DNA of 64,000 bases from Filimonas sp. (GTDB lineage Bacteria; Bacteroidota; Bacteroidia; Chitinophagales; Chitinophagaceae), in the NCBI GenBank assembly GCA_017306865.1, contig JAFKHH010000012.1:682001-746000 (forward strand). The letters are read 5' to 3'. This document shows positions 20,646 through 34,851 of the stretch, piece after piece; positions within the stretch are counted from its first letter, which is position 1; the number at the start of each line of letters is the position of its first letter. Made by a program: the position numbers and the translations under genes. The notes below the pieces were generated by a model. The model worked only from the letters and a program-made list of their open reading frames with translations, ran no database searches and had not been told where the DNA came from.

Positions 20646-23158
<2,513 letters not shown>

Positions 23159-23905
23159 ATGAAAAGAGAAGCGGAGACCAACCTGAGCACTTCACAACAA
23201 GCCAAACTGATCAAGGATGCAACCAAGTTAGTTGCCTCTTATCCTAAAGTTCCCATTACTGTAGACTGTGTGATCTTTGGTTTTGACGGTACGGAATTGA
23301 AAGTATTGCTCATTCGCAGTGACCTTGAAATATTTAAAGGTAGCTGGTCATTGTTGGGTGATTTCGCCGGCGATAACGAAGAACTGGATGAGGCTGCAGA
23401 CCGTGTATTACGCACCCGTACCGGTATGGATGGCGTGTACCTGGAGCAGGTAAGAACCTTTAGTAAGCCAAGCCGCCACCCCGGTGGACGTGTATTAACT
23501 GTTGCTTATTGTTCCTTATTGAATATTGAACATCACCAATTGAAAATACTGGATAACGAATTGCACTGGCATAGTATCCAGAGCCTGGGTGATATGGCAT
23601 TTGACCATAAAGAAATACTGGACTATTGCCACAAATGGTTGCAGAAAAGAATACAGGAACACCCGTTAGGGTTCAACCTGTTGCCTGATAAATTTTCTCT
23701 GCGCGAATTGCAAAACCTGTACGAAGTCATTCTTGACATAAAACTGGACAGGCGCAACTTCCGCAAAAAATTCTTCGCTATGGACTTTCTCATTGACACG
23801 GGTGAGTATGAAGATGATGTACCGCACCGCCCGGGCCGCCTGTATAAATTCAACTTCCAGAAGTACGAAAAAAACAAGAAAAGCTGGGTAGGGATAGATT
23901 TTTAG
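23159..23905 (+). CDS. NUDIX-domain transcriptional regulator, NrtR-like
   Basis: A 248-aa protein with a NUDIX fold (residues about 35-150) and a C-terminal winged helix (LPDKFSLRELQNLYEVILDIKLDRRNFRKKFFAMDFL). The NUDIX box at 67-89 reads GDFAGDNEELDEAADRVLRTRTG. The REx2EE core is changed to RVLRTR, so the metal-binding glutamates are lost and pyrophosphatase activity is unlikely. This is the pattern of NrtR-type regulators, several of which sense sugars or sugar phosphates in Bacteroidota. It is encoded directly ahead of the starch locus and is the best candidate regulator for it (inference from position). Confidence 0.85.
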   Translation: MKREAETNLSTSQQAKLIKDATKLVASYPKVPITVDCVIFGFDGTELKVLLIRSDLEIFKGSWSLLGDFAGDNEELDEAADRVLRTRTGMDGVYLEQVRTFSKPSRHPGGRVLTVAYCSLLNIEHHQLKILDNELHWHSIQSLGDMAFDHKEILDYCHKWLQKRIQEHPLGFNLLPDKFSLRELQNLYEVILDIKLDRRNFRKKFFAMDFLIDTGEYEDDVPHRPGRLYKFNFQKYEKNKKSWVGIDF

Positions 23906-23952
23906 AGATCAGGATGTAGAACTACCATATCGTTATATGAGTAAATTGTTTA

Positions 23953-24008
23953 ATTGTTAGAGGGTTGAATTGTTGGAGCTAGTCACAACAATTCAACCCT
24001 CTAACAAT
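23953..24008. terminator. Perfect 23-bp hairpin after the NUDIX gene
   Basis: Arms 23953-23975 and 23986-24008 are exact complements with a 10-base loop. They are built of the TTGTTAGAGGGTTGAATTG word that recurs in other gaps. It separates the regulator from the sus promoter region and could terminate transcription. Confidence 0.65.
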
Positions 24009-24122
24009 ATAGCCATGTAGCAATTCAACAATGGCGCAAATCCCTTCACTGTTTCCCCACCAAATGCCTCCGCCTTAAATTTTTAACAAATTCTAAAAAA
24101 AAGTCCTCCCTTTTGATTGAAA

Positions 24123-24139
24123 TGTGTAAAAATTACACA
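24123..24139. promoter_or_regulatory. Operator candidate 1 of the sus locus
   Basis: TGTGTAAAAATTACACA is a perfect 17-bp palindrome (7-bp arms, 3-base centre). A second copy with the same TGTGTA/TACACA half sites lies 44 bases downstream, centre to centre, about four helical turns. Both sit 50-110 bases before the amylase gene. Confidence 0.6.
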
Positions 24140-24166
24140 AATTTGTATCACGTTGCTGTTTTTAAT

Positions 24167-24183
24167 TGTGTAAAAAATACACA
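24167..24183. promoter_or_regulatory. Operator candidate 2 of the sus locus
   Basis: TGTGTAAAAAATACACA is 17 bp with the half sites TGTGTA and TACACA, the same length as site 1. Its end is 51 bases from the ATG at 24235. Candidate ligand of the NUDIX regulator encoded upstream (inference). Confidence 0.6.
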
Positions 24184-24234
24184 TATACATAACGGTAACA
24201 TGCCATAACAATTATTACCGCTTTGCTTGTACAT

Positions 24235-27147
24235 ATGAAACGATTACTGACTGCGTTTTTCATATTATTTACTGGTGCATCTGTGCATGCGCAGCTATTG
24301 AGCTGGTCGCCTGATTTTTTGCAGGAGACAAACGGCGCAGTTACTATTACAATGGATGCTTCAAAAGGTAACCAGGGATTATTAAACTACAGCCCGGTTT
24401 CAGATGTATATGTTCATATAGGCGTTATTACTTCTTTAAGTGCAAATTCTTCTGACTGGAAATATTCAAAATTTACATGGGGAACAACGAATGCGCCTGC
24501 ACAATGCACATCGTTAGGTAACAACAAATGGAGTTATACCATCAACGGAGGTTTACGCAGCTATTTTGGTATTGCGAATGCGAATGAAAAAATACTAAAG
24601 ATTGCAGTACTGTTTCGTAGCGGTGATGGAAATAAAGTTCAGCGCAATGTGGATGCCAGCGATATGTACGTACCTGTGTATGATAATGGCCTCTATACGC
24701 GCATAGATGAACCGGCACGCCAGCCTTTATATACGCCGGTTCCGGAAACAATAACAAAGATGCCTGGGCAAACAATTAATATTACTGCCAAAGCGAGTGC
24801 GCCTGTTACACTCAGCATTTTATTCAACAACAATACTGTTCAGACTGCATCCAACGCAACGTCATTAACAGCCGTGGCAACCATTGCAGCGGCTGGTTCA
24901 CAGCAGATCGTTGCTGTAGCGGATAATGGTACCACGAAGAAGTATGATACGATCTCCTTTAACGTAAATGATAATGTAAACGTTGCACCGCTTCCAGCTA
25001 ATGTAAAAGACGGCATTAACTATGAGCAGGGCGATACATCTGTAACACTGGTGCTATATGCACCGGGCAAGAACAGGATAAGTGTTATTGGTGATTTCAA
25101 TAACTGGACAGATGCCGCAGCGTACCAGATGAACAGAACGCCGGATGGCAACCGCTTTTGGCTGCGCATTACAAAACTTACTTCCGGTGTAGAATATGCT
25201 TATCAGTACTATGTAGATAATACCTTGAAGGTCGCGGATTATAATGCAGAGAAAATATTGGACCCTGCGAATGACCAATATATATCCGCTGCTACTTACC
25301 CAAACCTGAAAGCTTACCCGGCAGGTAAAGCATCAGGTATAGTAAGCGTATTGCAGACTGCAAAGCCTGCCTATAACTGGCAGGTGCAAAATTTTGCAAG
25401 GCCGGACAAAAGAAACCTGGTGATCTATGAGCTGCTCGTGCGTGATTTTGTAGCCGCACAGAACTGGCAAACAATAAAAGATACATTGTCTTATCTCAAA
25501 CGTCTTGGCATAAACGCGATAGAAGTAATGCCATTCAACGAATTTGAAGGCAACAATAGCTGGGGCTATAACCCATCATTCTACTTTGCGCCGGACAAAG
25601 CCTATGGTACGGAAACTGCACTGCGCCAGTTTATAGATGAGTGCCACAGGCAAGGCATAGCCGTAATAATGGATATAGTATTGAACCATTCTTTCGGGCA
25701 ATCGCCAATGGTGCAGTTGTATTGGGATGCTGCAAACAGCCGCCCTGCAACAAACAGTCCGTGGTTTAATCCCGTGGCAAAACATCCGTTTAATGTTGGC
25801 TATGATTTTAACCATGAGAGCCAGGCAACCAAAGATTTTGTTGATCGCGTTCTCGAACACTGGGTAACAAAATATAAGATCGATGGCTTCCGCTTTGACC
25901 TGTCAAAAGGATTTACACAAAAGCAAACATGCGATAACAATGGCAATAATTGTGATGTAAACGCATGGACAGCATACGACTCATCAAGAGTGGCTATATG
26001 GAAACGCATCTATACTAAAATGCAATCTGTAAACACAAATACTTATTGCATACTGGAACACCTGGGCGATAACAATGAAGAGAAAGACTTGTCGAATGCC
26101 GGAATGTTGTTGTGGGGTAATATGAATTACAATTTTAACCAGGCCACAATGGGTTTTGCAGATGGCTGGAATTTTGATGGATCGCTTGCTTCAAAACGCG
26201 GCTGGGCAAATCCATACTTAATAGCTTACCAGGAAAGCCATGACGAAGAAAGACTGATGTATAAAAACCTGCAGTTTGGAAATGCATCAGGGAGTTATAC
26301 AGTAAAAGATAAAAAAACGGCATTGCAGCGCAATGCAATGGCAACCGCAATCTGGGCGTTGATGCCGGGGCCAAAAATGTTGTGGCAGTTTGGAGAGCTC
26401 GGCTATGACTACTCCATTAATACCTGCGAAAATGGTAGCATCAGCAATGATTGCCGAACTGCGCCTAAACCGGTAAAATGGGACTACTATAATGATGCAG
26501 ATAGAAAGGCGCTGTACAACGTGTATGCGAAGCTGTTTAAACTAAGAAATACAACCAACTACCTGGGTACGTTTACAACCGGTATTACCGGTGGCGATTT
26601 ATCCGGCCCGGTGAAATCATTTACCGTTACCAGCGATTCGCTTAACATATTTGCCGTAGGTAATTTTGATGTAATATCAAGAACCGCTGCGGTTACATTT
26701 CCGGCTACAGGCAAATGGTACAGTTACTTCAGTGACTCTATCAAGCAAATAACTACTGCTACGCAAACAGTAAGCCTGTCACCCGGAGAATATTATGTGT
26801 TCACCTCCCGCAACCTGAACAACATTGTAGAAGTGGTGCCGCCGCAACCGCCGGTTGACTCGGCCACAGCGCTCTCATTGAAGATATATCCGAACGTTAT
26901 AAACAAAAAGCAGCAGGTAAGACTGGTCTATACAGTACCAGAGAGTGGAAATGTGAGCATCGCATTGTACGCTGCAAACGGAAGCAAGGCCGCAGAGATG
27001 CTGAATGCTTCCAGGAACAAAGGCACATATACTGAATTTATAACCATTAGTAACAACATGCTTAGTAACCTGTCCGGTGGTTTTTATTACGTAACGATCA
27101 GAACGGGCAAGTCGCATCAGACACAAAAGATACTGGTGATGTTATAA
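24235..27147 (+). CDS. Secreted GH13 alpha-amylase with T9SS sorting domain
   Basis: A 970-aa exported enzyme that should cut starch-like alpha-glucans outside the cell. In order: signal peptide (GASVHAQ); an exported-lipoprotein-like beta domain (about 20-150); an Ig-like segment; a CBM48-like domain (VTLVLYAPGKNRISVIGDFNNW, from about 268); the GH13 barrel with nucleophile Asp555 (GFRFDLSKG), acid Glu608 (ILEHLGD) and Asp670 (SHDEE); and a type IX secretion C-terminal domain from about 881 (LKIYPNVIN...GGFYYVTIRTG). ATG 24235 begins a proper signal peptide; TTG 24223 in frame is rejected. First gene of the sus run. Confidence 0.93.
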   Translation: MKRLLTAFFILFTGASVHAQLLSWSPDFLQETNGAVTITMDASKGNQGLLNYSPVSDVYVHIGVITSLSANSSDWKYSKFTWGTTNAPAQCTSLGNNKWSYTINGGLRSYFGIANANEKILKIAVLFRSGDGNKVQRNVDASDMYVPVYDNGLYTRIDEPARQPLYTPVPETITKMPGQTINITAKASAPVTLSILFNNNTVQTASNATSLTAVATIAAAGSQQIVAVADNGTTKKYDTISFNVNDNVNVAPLPANVKDGINYEQGDTSVTLVLYAPGKNRISVIGDFNNWTDAAAYQMNRTPDGNRFWLRITKLTSGVEYAYQYYVDNTLKVADYNAEKILDPANDQYISAATYPNLKAYPAGKASGIVSVLQTAKPAYNWQVQNFARPDKRNLVIYELLVRDFVAAQNWQTIKDTLSYLKRLGINAIEVMPFNEFEGNNSWGYNPSFYFAPDKAYGTETALRQFIDECHRQGIAVIMDIVLNHSFGQSPMVQLYWDAANSRPATNSPWFNPVAKHPFNVGYDFNHESQATKDFVDRVLEHWVTKYKIDGFRFDLSKGFTQKQTCDNNGNNCDVNAWTAYDSSRVAIWKRIYTKMQSVNTNTYCILEHLGDNNEEKDLSNAGMLLWGNMNYNFNQATMGFADGWNFDGSLASKRGWANPYLIAYQESHDEERLMYKNLQFGNASGSYTVKDKKTALQRNAMATAIWALMPGPKMLWQFGELGYDYSINTCENGSISNDCRTAPKPVKWDYYNDADRKALYNVYAKLFKLRNTTNYLGTFTTGITGGDLSGPVKSFTVTSDSLNIFAVGNFDVISRTAAVTFPATGKWYSYFSDSIKQITTATQTVSLSPGEYYVFTSRNLNNIVEVVPPQPPVDSATALSLKIYPNVINKKQQVRLVYTVPESGNVSIALYAANGSKAAEMLNASRNKGTYTEFITISNNMLSNLSGGFYYVTIRTGKSHQTQKILVML

Positions 27148-27183: not shown

Positions 27184-30100
27184 ATGAATTTAAAACGATT
27201 GCTAGGGCTATTTGTGTTGCCGCTACTGTTGCTATCCCTACATGCACAGGCGCAAGACAAAATCGTTTCCGGAAAAGTAACCGATGCAAAAAGCGGCGCA
27301 CCACTGGATGGTGTATCTGTAATTGTAAAAGGAGGCACTACCGGTACGCAAACGGCTGCTGACGGTACCTTTACCCTAAAAGTATCTGCCGGTGTAACAA
27401 AATTGATCATCTCATCTGTTAGTCACAGCACCCGCGAAGTAAGCATAGGAAGTGGTGGTGTACAGGTAGCATTGGAACCTACAGACCCAACGCTAAGCGA
27501 GGTCATAGTAGTTGGCTATGGTGTACAACGCAAACGGGATGTAACGGGCGCTATTGCCAAAGTAAAAGGAGACCAGATCAGCGCCACACCTGTGCCAAGC
27601 TTTGAAGCTGCATTGCAGGGCAAAGCGCCGGGCGTACAGATCATACAAGGTAATGGTCTTGCTGGTTCCGGTTCGGTTGTCCGTATAAGAGGTATTGGCT
27701 CTATCTCTGCATCCGGCGACCCGTTGTATGTAGTAGATGGTATCCCTGTTATTTCAGATCCGTTTATCAGGAGCAATGGTGGTGCTATGAACCAAAACCC
27801 ACTTTCGTCTATCAATCCAAACGATATAGAATCTATTGAAATATTAAAAGATGCGGGTGCAACCGGCATCTATGGATCACGTGGTGCAAATGGTGTAATT
27901 ATCATTACAACCAAACGCGGTAAATCTGGTAAACCAAGTTTTACGTACTCCAATAAACTGGGTATGGCTACCTATGCAAAAAAGCCTGATTTTGTAAACG
28001 GCCCTGAGTGGTTGCAACTAAGACAGGAAGCATGGGTAAATAGTGGCCATACAGGACAGGCTACATTGCCAGGTACACTAACGTGGGCACAAGCCAGCCA
28101 GAACAATACGGACTGGTGGGACTTGCTTACTGGTACAGGCTTCATCAATGATCACACCTTGTCTATGACACAAGGCACAAAGAAATTAAAAACATTTGCG
28201 AACCTGACGTATAGTGATGATAAAGGCTATATCAAAAGCAATGCTTATACACGCCTTGCTGCAAGGTTGAACATGGACTATAACATCACAGATAAGCTGA
28301 AGGTGTCCTTAACATCAGCATACAATCGTGGCGTGAACAAACGTGTGCCTGCTGCATGGGATGGTGGTATAGGTGATGCCATGTCAAGCGCGTTGCCAAT
28401 CTTCCCGGTGTACAATGCAGACGGTTCTTATTATAGTGGCTTGACAAACCCCGTAATTAAAACGAATGAGAACAAACGCCGCGAAATTGATAGCAGGATC
28501 TTAGGTGGATTGGGATTAGAATATCAACCGATCAAAAATCTCTTCCTGCGTGCAAACGGCGCAATTGAATATACCAACTCATTTGCTGATGAGTTTCAGA
28601 CAGCAACCTGGAATAAGCTTTATTCAAATAAAACAACAGGTACAGCTTCCCGCAATCCCTATTGGGGATCAAACATTACTGCAAACTTTACCGCAAACTA
28701 TTTGTGGAACCCTGGAAAAGACCACAAGTTCAATTTCCTGGCCGGTACAGAAATGCAGGACTACCAGCGTAAAGGATATACTGCATCTATTGTAAAAGAT
28801 ATGAACCAGCCATTTTGGCAAGATCCTTCTGCATACAGGCAACTGCGCGATTCGTTGAAGTCTGCCCCGGTGCCGGGTATCTCTGAAGTGTCACAGGAAG
28901 AATTTACGTTCGGTAGTGTATTTGGCAGAATAAACTATACCTACAAAGACCGCTACTCTTTGCAAATGATTGCGAGGGTAGATGGCTCATCTAAGTTTGG
29001 CGCAAACTACAAACATGGCTTCTTCCCTGCTATATCCGGTGCATGGACGATCAGTGACGAAGAGTTTATGAAAGGGATCAAAGAGATCAATTTTCTTAAA
29101 CTGAGAGCCAGCTATGGTGTAGTCGGTAACGCAAATATTCCTTCAGGCGTTTACTATGATAACTACCGCGTAGGCTCCAATAACTACAATGGTAACCCTA
29201 CATTATATTTAAATGCACCAGGTAACCCTGATCTGAAATGGGAAACAATGCGCAACGTTGACATCGCTTTGGAGTTCGCATTGTTGGGGAATCGCTTAAC
29301 AGGTGAAGTTGCCTATTATCATAAAGCAACGACAGATATTTTGTTGCAGCCGGGGGTTCAACCATCAACAGGTTATCCAACTATATGGCGCAACCTAAGC
29401 AACAGTAAAATATTAAATGAAGGCCTTGAGTTCAGTGCAAACTATAAGATAATAGATAACAAGCAAGTGAGGTGGAGTATTGGAGGCAATATTGCTAAAA
29501 ACAGGAATGAAGTATTAGAGTATGAACTTGGACCGGATGCCGTTAGTGGTGGTACAAATGATACAAGAATTGTGAAAGGGCTGCCGATAGGTGTGAACTA
29601 TCTTGTACGCTACTATGGTGTAGATGCTGCAGATGGCTTACCTATCTGGTTGGATAAAAATGGTAAACAAACCAAAACATTCTCATTAGACAACCGCGTA
29701 TATGCCGGTAGTGTAATGCCGGATTATATAGGCGGTTTTAATACGGCGGTTAGTTATAAAAACTTCGATTTCTCTGCATTGTTCAGCTTTGTTATCGGAG
29801 GTAATATTTATGAGAACTCCGCCAAATACCAATTCCTTGGGGTGTCTAAAAAATTCTGGAATTTCCGTAAAGACTTCTTAGACAGGTGGACAAGGCCGGG
29901 CGACGATGCAAAGTATCCGAAACTGGTTGCTGATGCTGCTGACTATCCGGGTGTGCCGAGCGAGGATCAGTTTAACTCTACCATGTTCCTGCGCAGTGCA
30001 TCTTACATGCGTTTGAGAGAAATGACAATCGCATACCGTTTTACCAAAAGTACATTGGGTAAACTTCCTTTAAAAGACCTGCGCCTGTTTGTAACAGGTA

Positions 30101-30255
30101 CCAACCTGCTTACCTTCTCTAAATTCCCTGGCGGCGATCCGGAGATCACGCGTGATTTTGAGAATGCACAGGACAGGAACCTTAGCCCGAACATTACATA
30201 CCTGACTGCACCAACGCAAAAGACAGTTGTGTTCGGTCTTACTGTAAGCTTTTAA
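27184..30255 (+). CDS. SusC/RagA-type TonB-dependent transporter
   Basis: A 1023-aa outer-membrane importer. Signal peptide (LHAQAQ), carboxypeptidase-regulatory-like domain (VSGKVTDAKSGAPLDGVSVIV), SusC TonB-box region EVIVVGYGVQRKRDVTGAI near residue 105-125, plug (LYVVDGIPV, GATGIYGSRGANGVIIITTK), then the long beta barrel ending in an aromatic terminus (VVFGLTVSF). With SusD it binds and imports oligosaccharides, here probably maltodextrins released by the GH13 enzyme 36 bases upstream. The length is normal. Confidence 0.96.
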   Translation: MNLKRLLGLFVLPLLLLSLHAQAQDKIVSGKVTDAKSGAPLDGVSVIVKGGTTGTQTAADGTFTLKVSAGVTKLIISSVSHSTREVSIGSGGVQVALEPTDPTLSEVIVVGYGVQRKRDVTGAIAKVKGDQISATPVPSFEAALQGKAPGVQIIQGNGLAGSGSVVRIRGIGSISASGDPLYVVDGIPVISDPFIRSNGGAMNQNPLSSINPNDIESIEILKDAGATGIYGSRGANGVIIITTKRGKSGKPSFTYSNKLGMATYAKKPDFVNGPEWLQLRQEAWVNSGHTGQATLPGTLTWAQASQNNTDWWDLLTGTGFINDHTLSMTQGTKKLKTFANLTYSDDKGYIKSNAYTRLAARLNMDYNITDKLKVSLTSAYNRGVNKRVPAAWDGGIGDAMSSALPIFPVYNADGSYYSGLTNPVIKTNENKRREIDSRILGGLGLEYQPIKNLFLRANGAIEYTNSFADEFQTATWNKLYSNKTTGTASRNPYWGSNITANFTANYLWNPGKDHKFNFLAGTEMQDYQRKGYTASIVKDMNQPFWQDPSAYRQLRDSLKSAPVPGISEVSQEEFTFGSVFGRINYTYKDRYSLQMIARVDGSSKFGANYKHGFFPAISGAWTISDEEFMKGIKEINFLKLRASYGVVGNANIPSGVYYDNYRVGSNNYNGNPTLYLNAPGNPDLKWETMRNVDIALEFALLGNRLTGEVAYYHKATTDILLQPGVQPSTGYPTIWRNLSNSKILNEGLEFSANYKIIDNKQVRWSIGGNIAKNRNEVLEYELGPDAVSGGTNDTRIVKGLPIGVNYLVRYYGVDAADGLPIWLDKNGKQTKTFSLDNRVYAGSVMPDYIGGFNTAVSYKNFDFSALFSFVIGGNIYENSAKYQFLGVSKKFWNFRKDFLDRWTRPGDDAKYPKLVADAADYPGVPSEDQFNSTMFLRSASYMRLREMTIAYRFTKSTLGKLPLKDLRLFVTGTNLLTFSKFPGGDPEITRDFENAQDRNLSPNITYLTAPTQKTVVFGLTVSF

Positions 30256-30277: not shown

Positions 30278-31680
30278 ATGAAAAGAAATTACAATCTACT
30301 TATAATAGCAGCCTGCCTCACAATAATATTGTCTGCATGCTCTAAGTTTTTTGACAAGCCACCACAAGGCCAGATCACCCAGGAAGAAGCCTTTAAAGAT
30401 GAAGCCGGGCTTGTGTCGTTTACAAATGGTATCTATACCTACCTCGGCGATGGTGATTTTATGGGAGGCCGTGTGCAAGTACTTAGCGACATCTTAGCTG
30501 ATGAGTTGAAAGGTGATAAGTTTACCGGTGACTATGCTGAGATCTATGGACGCCGTAACTCTATTTTCGGTGCCACCCGTGATGCGATGTACCTGAAAGG
30601 ATATAAGATCATCAATGCTGCTAACCTGGTATTGGAAAATTTAAGTATAGCCAATACACAGAAAGATAATCTTAGAGGGCAGGCTTTGTTCTTCAGAGGT
30701 ATGACCCACTTTGAATTAGTACGCTTGTTTGCACAACCATGGGGCTACTCTCCGGACAATAGTCAATACGGTATTCCATTACGCTTAAAATCCGGGCAGG
30801 AATTATTGCAACGTGCTACGGTAAAGCAAGTGTACGACCAGGTGATTGCTGATCTGAAAGCCGCAGATTCATTGCTGGCACCAGATGCAAATAGCGGCAA
30901 GTTTTATACAGCATCCAAATGGATAGCAGAAGCATATTTGGCAAAAGTATATTTCCAGATGAATGATTTTGCCAACGCATACAAATATGCTGACCAGGTC
31001 ATCAAGAGCGGTAAGTTCCAGCTAGATGCAGACTATACAAGCCGTTACTCCGTAGGCTTGACAAAAGAAGCGATATTAAGAATTGCCAACGAAGTAAACC
31101 ACTTCCAGCCAGGAACAGAACTGATCGGCAACTGGCGTTCTGATAAAGCTGTGCCAACCTGCAACTTTACAGACGCCTACTACAACAATGCAGTATCCCG
31201 TGTAAACGATAAGCGCAAGATCTGGTATAGCAATACGCTGCAGGCAGGGTACAACGTCCTGACCAAATACAACATGGACTACACTACATGGAGCTGCCTA
31301 TTACCCATCTTACAGAAATGAAGCTAATCCGTGCAGAAGCAGGTGCAGAAATAGCTACGTCTAATGCTGCTGCGCTTACTGTAGCTATTACAGACATCAA
31401 TGATATTATGACAAGAGCTTATGGCGGCACAACGAATAATTTGCCACCAACAGCTACCGCTACCGGCGTGATCAGTACAGTACGTACAGAAAGAGAACTG
31501 GAAATGATAGGTGAAGGCAACAGGCTACAGGAGATAAAAAGGATTGGCGTACGTACAGGGCAAAATATAGACAGAAGAGGCTCCCCGTGGAATTGTAATG
31601 GCTTTATACTCCAGTTCCCTAAAGGAGAGCAGGATGCCTATGCGCCATTTGTTTTAAATCCTGAAGGCGGTTGTTTCTAA
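30278..31680 (+). pseudogene. SusD/RagB lipoprotein gene, broken by a 1-base frameshift
   Basis: The surface glycan-binding partner of SusC. The first part (30278-31321) starts with a lipobox (LSAC, Cys21) and carries the SusD TPR core (RGQALFFRGMTHFELVRLF), but ends abruptly after NMDYTTW. The reading continues one frame over from about 31288 to 31680 as ELPITHLTEMKLIRAEAGAE, the conserved SusD C-terminus. Adding one G to the GG at 31290-31291 (TGG-GAG) restores DYTTWELPITHL and a protein of about 466 aa. Either a recent 1-base deletion or a sequencing error; no slippery site is visible. The rest is well preserved. Confidence 0.88.
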
Positions 31681-33036: not shown

Positions 33037-34851
33037 ATGCAAGCCAAAAAATTATCTATACTCATACTTATCCTTGCAGCCATCTTTGCTTCCTGTAAGA
33101 AGCCAGACCTGGCAGGGAATGATGCTACAGGAGAAGGATTAGTGAACTTCACACTGATCGGCCCGGCATCAGGTACTACGCTGCTGTTGAATGCGGCAGT
33201 ACCCAATACCACCATTGATATTACATGGAACGCCTCTACACCCGGCCTTCATACTGTGCCCACTTACACCTGGGTTGCGGCATTAAAGACTGGCGGCGAC
33301 ATTACAAAACCGATTGTGAAACTGCCCTCTAACAACGGTGGAAAAGATACTAAGCTGACTGTAACCTATAAGCAACTGGATGATGCGCTGAAAACAGCAG
33401 GTATTGCTGACGGCGCTAAAACAGATTTTATATGGAGCGTGGTAGCGGACAACGGTAGCACACAATTGCTGGCGCAAAATGTTTTCAATATTTCTATTTC
33501 AAGATTCAAAGACGGAGCATCTCCCTTTGTATTGTTAGCACCTGCATCTTCTGCAACACCCATTGCAATAGACCCGGGTTCCACAACACAAAGTATTGCC
33601 TTCAAATGGACAAAGTCAGTGCCTGCTGCCGGTGGAGCTGCTATCAAATACAAAATATTGTTTGTAGAAAAGAAAACGGATAGCAACGGTAACGAGATAG
33701 CGCCGGACTTTACAAAACCATTATTTACAATCGCATCCAATAACAGTGGCGTAGATTCATTTGCCAACGTTTTATACAAAAGCATAAGCGACTCATTGAG
33801 CGCACATGGCCTAACGAACCTGAGCTTGCCCTCTAATTTAAAATGGACAGTAGTGGCAACTTCTGGCACCTGGAGCCAGCAGTCAGATTATATAAACGAT
33901 GTAGTGATCTTACGTGAAGTAAGGATCTATATTGCCGGTAGCTTCCAGAGCGCTTCAGGTTATGGCAATGACTGGACACCGGCTACAGCACCGGAAATGG
34001 TAAGAGATATGCGTGCGGGGTTGGTGAACAATAAATACTACACCTACATCTATCTTCCCGCCAATGCAGAGTTTAAATTCACACAAGGCCGCGCATGGGA
34101 TGTAGCGTATGGTACAGGTGCAACACCCGGATCACTGACTACAGATAACGGTGGCAATGTTAAAGTATCCACAGCCGGAGTATATCGCATTTGTATCAAC
34201 AGGACAACTATGACTTATGATATACAAGCCGGCCGTATGGGACTTGTAGGTGGGGCTGTTACGAACGTAGGTTGGGATCCTTCAAAAGTGTTCCCTACAG
34301 CTCAGATGAAATTCCTGGGCGATAACAAATTCCTCGCTATCTACGACTTTACAGCCGATGGTTGGAAAATGATCGATGCAGATCATTGGAACAATGGTGG
34401 TGCTAACCCCGACGTAACTGATCCGCACACATTCGGCTCCAATGGTGCAAGTGGCTCTACGCTTGACATTAACAATGAGAACATGCCTAACATCGCTGTA
34501 GCCGGAAGGTACCGCGTAATATGGGATGGCACAGACGTAAACAATGTGAAGTACACGCTTACATCGGCAGATAAATTATACGTGATTGGCAGTGCTACTG
34601 TTGGCGGCTGGGACAATCTAACGACACAGACAGACGCGCAACGCCCGCCACTTACCTACCAGGGCAATGGCGTATGGAAAGGAACTGTAACCCTGGGTAG
34701 TGGTGATATTAAATTCATTGTACAGAAAGGAAGCTGGGATTATAGCTACGGCGGCGCAGCCGGCAAACTGGGTGATGCCAACATTACCGTAAGCGCCGGA
34801 ACCTATACCATTACGGTAGATGAGTATAACAAGACTTATACTATACAATAA
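33037..34851 (+). CDS. SusE/SusF-like surface starch-binding lipoprotein
   Basis: A 604-aa lipoprotein (IFASC, Cys20). Two tandem Ig-like SusE N-domains (FTLIGPASGTTLLL..., then FVLLAPASSATPIA...) are followed by three beta-sandwich modules beginning IYIAGSFQSASG, GLVGGAVTNVGWD and LYVIGSATVGGWDN, the pattern of SusE/SusF starch-binding domains. It displays glucan-binding sites on the outer membrane next to SusCD. It is last in the run and is followed by a strong terminator. The usual B. thetaiotaomicron SusE is shorter, so the duplicated N-domain is notable. Confidence 0.88.
   Translation: MQAKKLSILILILAAIFASCKKPDLAGNDATGEGLVNFTLIGPASGTTLLLNAAVPNTTIDITWNASTPGLHTVPTYTWVAALKTGGDITKPIVKLPSNNGGKDTKLTVTYKQLDDALKTAGIADGAKTDFIWSVVADNGSTQLLAQNVFNISISRFKDGASPFVLLAPASSATPIAIDPGSTTQSIAFKWTKSVPAAGGAAIKYKILFVEKKTDSNGNEIAPDFTKPLFTIASNNSGVDSFANVLYKSISDSLSAHGLTNLSLPSNLKWTVVATSGTWSQQSDYINDVVILREVRIYIAGSFQSASGYGNDWTPATAPEMVRDMRAGLVNNKYYTYIYLPANAEFKFTQGRAWDVAYGTGATPGSLTTDNGGNVKVSTAGVYRICINRTTMTYDIQAGRMGLVGGAVTNVGWDPSKVFPTAQMKFLGDNKFLAIYDFTADGWKMIDADHWNNGGANPDVTDPHTFGSNGASGSTLDINNENMPNIAVAGRYRVIWDGTDVNNVKYTLTSADKLYVIGSATVGGWDNLTTQTDAQRPPLTYQGNGVWKGTVTLGSGDIKFIVQKGSWDYSYGGAAGKLGDANITVSAGTYTITVDEYNKTYTIQ

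Follow-up and report, generated by a model that had tools for sequence, protein, structure and literature searches.

What is known of starch use in Bacteroidota comes mainly from SusR, a membrane activator of gut Bacteroides. The starch locus considered here lies in a stretch of 64,000 nucleotides from Filimonas sp. (the window) and raises the question of which regulator reads the two palindromes in front of it—and what else this regulator might control. All genes of the locus lie on the forward strand. A gene for a 248-residue NUDIX protein (23159–23905), the proposed repressor, precedes an α-amylase with a CBM48 domain (24235–27147), which would be the first gene of the target operon. A susC-like TonB-dependent receptor (27184–30255), a susD-like gene (30278–31680) and a SusE/SusF-like outer-membrane protein (33037–34851) follow, as assigned from open reading frames and domain scans. 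The amylase start was picked by eye, the listed reading frame beginning at a TTG at 24223. The susD-like gene is apparently split by a frameshift: two reading frames (30278–31321, which carries the SusD-like_3 domain, and 31288–31680) lie in different frames, overlap at 31288–31321 and sum to the length of a SusD. These coordinates agree with the original prediction, which had placed the sites just ahead of an amylase–susC–susD run and the NUDIX gene immediately upstream. It had also named the NUDIX gene as the only regulator nearby; among reading frames of at least 120 residues between 17000 and 40000, this is indeed the regulator adjoining the sites, but a histidine kinase and a response regulator, recognized by eye, lie about 14 kb downstream. 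Two inverted repeats flank the NUDIX gene. A perfect 20-bp repeat with a 36-base loop (22858–22877 and 22914–22933) lies between this gene and the divergent ligA, and a long near-perfect hairpin (23946–24005), a repeated element with 45 matches in the genome, lies between the NUDIX stop codon and the first palindrome.

The predicted operators O1, TGTGTAAAAATTACACA (24123–24139), and O2, TGTGTAAAAAATACACA (24167–24183), are both exact copies of TGTGTA-N5-TACACA with perfect arms of 7 and 6 bp, respectively, so that the two 17-bp palindromes with common half sites are present as described. Counted from start to start, they are separated by 44 bp, equal to 4.2 helical turns of 10.5 bp, and the gap between them is 27 bp. 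No other exact copy occurs in the window, where a first-order Markov model expects 0.006. With the same model of the window, 0.59 copies are expected in the 6.15-Mb genome, which holds five; the reversed control pattern has none, and a random scatter of the site over the genome is not what is observed. Both palindromes are real sites, far beyond chance. With up to one mismatch, the genome holds 27 matches versus 13 for the reversed control, and because this excess is only twofold, it is the exact-match class that holds the signal. With up to two mismatches, the window holds six matches versus a shuffle mean of 3.8, a count reached in 18 of 100 shuffles.

The exact sites beyond the window lead to further α-glucan genes. 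One lies 31 bp ahead of the probable signal-peptide start (a methionine picked by eye) of another GH13 amylase and one 208 bp ahead of MalQ, a GH77 4-α-glucanotransferase with a CBM20 domain; the fifth is located within a GH71-like reading frame, 475 bp before a GH31. One-mismatch sites are found 44 bp ahead of an α-glucan phosphorylase, directly before a transporter–neopullulanase pair downstream of glgA and glgC, and close to where a GH3 gene begins. These come from 11 of 22 one-mismatch sites, picked for inspection partly for their AT-rich centers; six of the 11 lie within reading frames and two have no evident target. The same operator thus stands before several α-glucan operons, which therefore form a dispersed regulon, and the local, distinct circuit that had been envisaged gives way to this wider one. 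A scan of the window for a site ahead of the NUDIX gene itself found none.

The NUDIX protein matches the Pfam families NUDIX, NrtR_WHD and AraR_C, all above cut-offs, and hence combines, as members of the sugar branch of the NrtR family do, a NUDIX domain at its N terminus with an NrtR/AraR winged helix at its C terminus. Compared with solved structures, it matches BtAraR of Bacteroides thetaiotaomicron best (5BS6, E 1.6e-50), with 85 of 217 aligned residues identical (39%), and this match should already fix its fold. Compared by eye with the Nudix signature as quoted in PMC4666351, the catalytic motif is broken: the second glycine of the loop is Asp68, and the three glutamate positions are taken by Val83, Thr86 and Arg87. 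In the BtAraR–DNA crystal structure, the GTGT half site is defined by Lys179, Arg180, Asn181, Lys184, Lys204 and Arg205 (PMC4666351). The equivalent residues here are Arg198, Arg199, Asn200, Lys203, His223 and Arg224; four of the six are identical (R180, N181, K184 and R205), K179 is replaced by arginine and K204 by histidine. They lie on a recognition helix D197-R-R-N-F-R-K-K204 (codons at 23747–23770, forward strand), aligned with D178-K-R-N-F-R-K-R of BtAraR, and on a wing with H223-R224 (23825–23830, forward strand), aligned with K204-R205. Among six van der Waals contacts of BtAraR to DNA, D178 and R183 are identical, and S163R, K200D, A207G and A208R differ. The gel-shift oligonucleotides of BtAraR carry AGTGTATTTGATACACC, AGTGTTACTTTTACACC and AGTGTAAAAAAGACACT (PMC4666351); both these and the window sites contain GTGT-N7-ACAC, with an equal 15-bp core geometry. 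In the sugar pocket, two of the residues that hydrogen-bond L-arabinose, Arg86 and His131, are kept (R106 and H150), and Arg34 is Ser54, so that the full set of Arg34, Arg86 and His131 typical of AraR proper is not present. Gly48 and Phe36 of BtAraR differ as well (Asp68 and Leu56). Because four of the six base contacts are identical and Arg34 is replaced, the DNA code appears to be common with BtAraR, and the sugar sensed is probably different from its L-arabinose.

Conservation at orthologous loci was assessed on the best 80 of 573 confirmed NUDIX loci, which come mostly from Chitinophagaceae and in part from the genomes surveyed below; three of the 80 run off their contig. Wherever the next gene is a GH13 or a SusC—here a BLAST match to the SusC of the window, that is, SusC-like—the site occurs in the intervening gap with at most one mismatch (26 of 26), whereas it occurs in none of the 51 gaps in which the next gene is something else, often yicC. 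The reversed pattern, allowed two mismatches, is found in four of the same 26 gaps. The orthologous loci were a proposed check of the original prediction and bear it out. They also speak to the notion that the palindromes arose by chance or belong to a repeated structural element that no regulator reads. Repeated hairpins do exist in this genome, including the one upstream of O1 described above; the exact sites, however, are rare and placed before particular genes, and with the contrast of 26/26 to 0/51 in these best 80 of 573 loci, this notion can practically be dismissed.

The arrangement of the sites is less constant than their presence. Among the GH13/SusC loci of this sample, 14 of 26 have a single site, and the 14 spacings between neighboring sites amount to 23–25 bp (eight) or 29–31 bp (six). 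The 44-base spacing that had been pointed out is hence a measured property of the window locus that relatives do not keep, and a conserved four-turn spacing is ruled out. Ahead of the NUDIX gene itself, the site is present in 14 of the 80 loci with at most one mismatch and in 19 with at most two, versus none of 80 for the reversed control at two mismatches. This suggests autoregulation of the NUDIX gene in some relatives—not in the window.

A broader view is given by 147 genomes of the same family, drawn evenly and classed by the E value of their best NUDIX match: close (class A, at most 1e-100), middling (class B, 1e-62 to 1e-99) and weak or none (class C). Exact sites are present in 43 of 47 class A genomes (125 sites, 0.596 per Mb), in 25 of 47 class B genomes (65 sites, 0.31 per Mb) and in 11 of 53 class C genomes (14 sites, 0.069 per Mb), compared with reversed-control densities of 0.043, 0.019 and 0.025 per Mb; the genomes are related by descent, and these counts are not independent, so that P values come out too strong. 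Four of the 47 class A and 22 of the 47 class B genomes lack an exact site. The sites and the NUDIX gene travel together in the family, which is the co-occurrence that had been proposed as a check. Among the 14 class C sites, nine lie within reading frames, one is intergenic and four belong to a single genome (G043, assembly 83% complete), where two stand beside SusC and MalQ, yet the NUDIX match is only 40%. For class B, 19 NUDIX loci from the 47 genomes were inspected: 18 have GH13, SusC or SusE among the listed neighbors, and 12 have a GTGT or GCGT palindrome within 700 bp.

The relatives contain 199 exact sites, of which 75 listed ones and the remaining class C sites were examined. Among the class A and B sites listed, 49 of 72 precede α-glucan, SusC-like or NUDIX genes; Pfam and NCBIfam added eight more (two GH97, two secreted GH13, two phosphofructokinases, an aldolase and a ROK kinase), and 15 of the 72 have no assigned glucan, SusC, NUDIX or glycolysis gene. 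The identified targets are α-glucan genes and some glycolysis genes. The latter comprise exact sites before a phosphofructokinase in two genomes, a class I fructose-bisphosphate aldolase and a ROK kinase (L182, L205, L184 and L099).

In some relatives, a LacI-type regulator is located beside the sites and might be the true reader of the palindrome. Its genes adjoin sites at two loci (L071 and L075, with a Pfam LacI match for L071). The Filimonas genome itself, though, has only 27–30% matches to this LacI among the matches listed, and co-occurrence reveals no effect on site density: close-NUDIX genomes have the site in 19 of 20 cases with a LacI orthologue (0.629 per Mb) and in 24 of 27 without (0.572 per Mb), and among genomes that have LacI but whose NUDIX match is neither close nor middling, one of four has it (0.052 per Mb). 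LacI operators moreover usually have CG at an even center, which also counts against LacI as the reader. We hence rejected this candidate and regard such a role as highly improbable. In two further genomes (G040 and G129; loci L260 and L271), a LacI gene lies between the NUDIX gene and susC, and neither genome holds an exact site; this counts in favor of LacI and might mark a takeover of control.

A second candidate reader is encoded in the genome itself. A NUDIX paralogue (C42), 41% identical, adjoins a NAMPT-like gene, and its recognition helix is nearly identical (DRRNFRR versus DRRNFRK), so that the paralogue, or both proteins, might bind the TGTGTA sites. However, its own start carries TTGCGTCAAAATAACGCAA, a palindrome of the TTGCGT-N7-ACGCAA type with the same spacing as the GTGT type, and the same palindrome recurs before NAD-type genes in relatives: at nine of 30 loci examined (L226, L233, L239, L241, L246, L247, L250, L252 and L253), pairs 50–53 bp apart precede nicotinamide-nucleotide adenylyltransferase/Nudix-like genes, whose NCBIfam matches were below cut-off in the two scanned. 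These tandem sites are probable operators of NAD-type NrtR. The TGTGTA regulon is missing from the class C genomes, whose NUDIX match is in many cases only about 40%. Linkage to NAD synthesis together with such sites, the mark of an NAD-type NrtR, is found for the paralogue and not for the window protein. With its own GCGT palindrome, the paralogue was set aside as the reader and appears very unlikely to have that role. As a regulon marker by count, TTGCGT-N7-ACGCAA was also discarded (65 sites versus 41 for the reversed pattern in the 147 genomes, summed by hand); it is informative by position only.

The GCGT type returns in a different setting in two genomes of one sister genus (G014 and G112), which have a 60% NUDIX match and no TGTGTA site. 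Here, GCGT sites stand before the susC adjoining the NUDIX gene, before a GH13 elsewhere and, with one mismatch, before a GH31 (L274, L276, L277, L278, L289 and L290); the other matches lie within reading frames, apart from two sites that mix GTGT with GCGT and have no obvious target. The NUDIX proteins of this genus bear substitutions, among them P222R and G226A in the wing, that none of the other 23 sugar-type proteins in the comparison has; two more of these, F206L and L211I, are also present in the NAD-type paralogue. Because a single lineage is concerned, a switch from GTGT to GCGT is suggestive only. We see an even chance that one NUDIX repressor governs surface α-glucan capture, the degradation of maltodextrin and, in some relatives, also the step into glycolysis, and that in the sister genus the half site of its operator was rewired by one base, GTGT becoming GCGT, in three operons or more, along with changes in the winged helix. 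If true, this would be a natural experiment on how a repressor and its target sites shift their specificity in concert, and the paralogue pair and the one-genus switch would make a tractable case of regulator–operator co-evolution.

How the NUDIX protein would act at the sites is indicated by the promoter. The Bacteroidota −7 element has the consensus TAnnTTTG (PMC7366714). A putative −7 element, CAAATTTG (24138–24145, forward strand; five of six consensus letters), overlaps the right end of O1, and a weak putative −33 element, TTTG, lies at 24112–24115 on the same strand. Among 92 sites oriented to their target gene, 14 carry TTTG at +19 and eight at +17, versus none and two in the mirror-image control and a background of about one per position; this offset was noticed first and only then compared with the control. 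With ACACA ahead of it, TTTG becomes part of CAnnTTTG, which is near the −7 consensus; the 92 oriented sites show no complete TAnnTTTG box at a constant offset. An operator placed over the −7 box is in keeping with repression. Since related sites are not independent and most carry no TTTG, the sign of regulation is one that we infer.

In the mechanism we propose, a NUDIX dimer with broken Nudix catalysis would read GTGT-N7-ACAC through its C-terminal winged helices. O1 would cover the −7 region of the amylase–sus promoter and O2 would lie just downstream, and the apo-dimer would therefore block transcription. On uptake of α-glucan, a glucose- or maltose-like effector might fill the Nudix pocket, the winged helices would move and the DNA would be released. 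A glucose- or maltose-type sugar is our guess, made because of the regulon and the changed pocket. The protein might instead bind O1 and O2 and activate, or do both, rather than simply repress: the −7-like overlap is found in only 22 of the 92 oriented sites, and starch induction by SusR in Bacteroides is activation (PMC3878776). The overlap of O1 with the −7-like element in the window argues against this, as does BtAraR, described as binding DNA as the apo-protein and letting go with its sugar (PMC4666351), and we consider activation, alone or combined with repression, rather improbable. On the computed evidence—sites, conservation, regulon, co-occurrence and residue correspondence—we hold with good confidence that an AraR-type NUDIX repressor reads O1 and O2 and governs a dispersed α-glucan regulon; binding, repression rather than activation and the effector are what we infer from the sequences. 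The core of the original prediction, an NrtR-like NUDIX protein acting through palindromes, thereby gains support from non-chance sites, from 26/26 orthologous loci (best 80 of 573) and from co-occurrence across 147 genomes. The predicted site, regulon and pocket are given here for testing.

In a phylogenetic tree, 25 sugar-type (α-glucan) NUDIX proteins form one clade (97/97). BtAraR stands beside it (96/88) and the NAD type apart (96/91); BtAraR and SoNrtR have long branches and unsure places, and the tree was rooted solely for display. Among the matches listed for 198 genomes of the class, none from outside the family exceeds 50% identity, and the α-glucan NUDIX branch hence seems to be centered on one family.

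The original prediction had called a NUDIX circuit at a starch locus distinct; in kind, it is known from AraR of Bacteroides, where NUDIX control of polysaccharide loci through tandem sites is described (PMC4666351). No NUDIX regulator of starch use was described in the open-access literature searched, mostly by titles and abstract openings. The present system is very probably of the AraR/XylR kind in a new version, a NUDIX-controlled α-glucan regulon. With BtAraR (BT0354), a member of the NrtR family, it has in common the NUDIX and winged-helix domains, the GTGT-N7-ACAC core, tandem sites and SusC/SusD loci; it differs in its α-glucan regulon, in place of L-arabinose, and in an outer operator base T instead of A or G (PMC4666351). 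BtXylR (BT0791), a predicted xylose regulator, is likewise a sugar-type NUDIX protein of Bacteroidota but belongs to a different pathway (PMC3878776, PMC4666351). NAD-type NrtR proteins are of the same family but are linked to NAD genes (PMC4666351). SusR of Bacteroides thetaiotaomicron also controls starch sus operons and, unlike the NUDIX protein, is a membrane activator with a direct-repeat motif (PMC3878776). A cytoplasmic NUDIX protein would fill the role of SusR in many Chitinophagaceae, and regulators of the AraR/XylR type would extend from pentoses to α-glucans.
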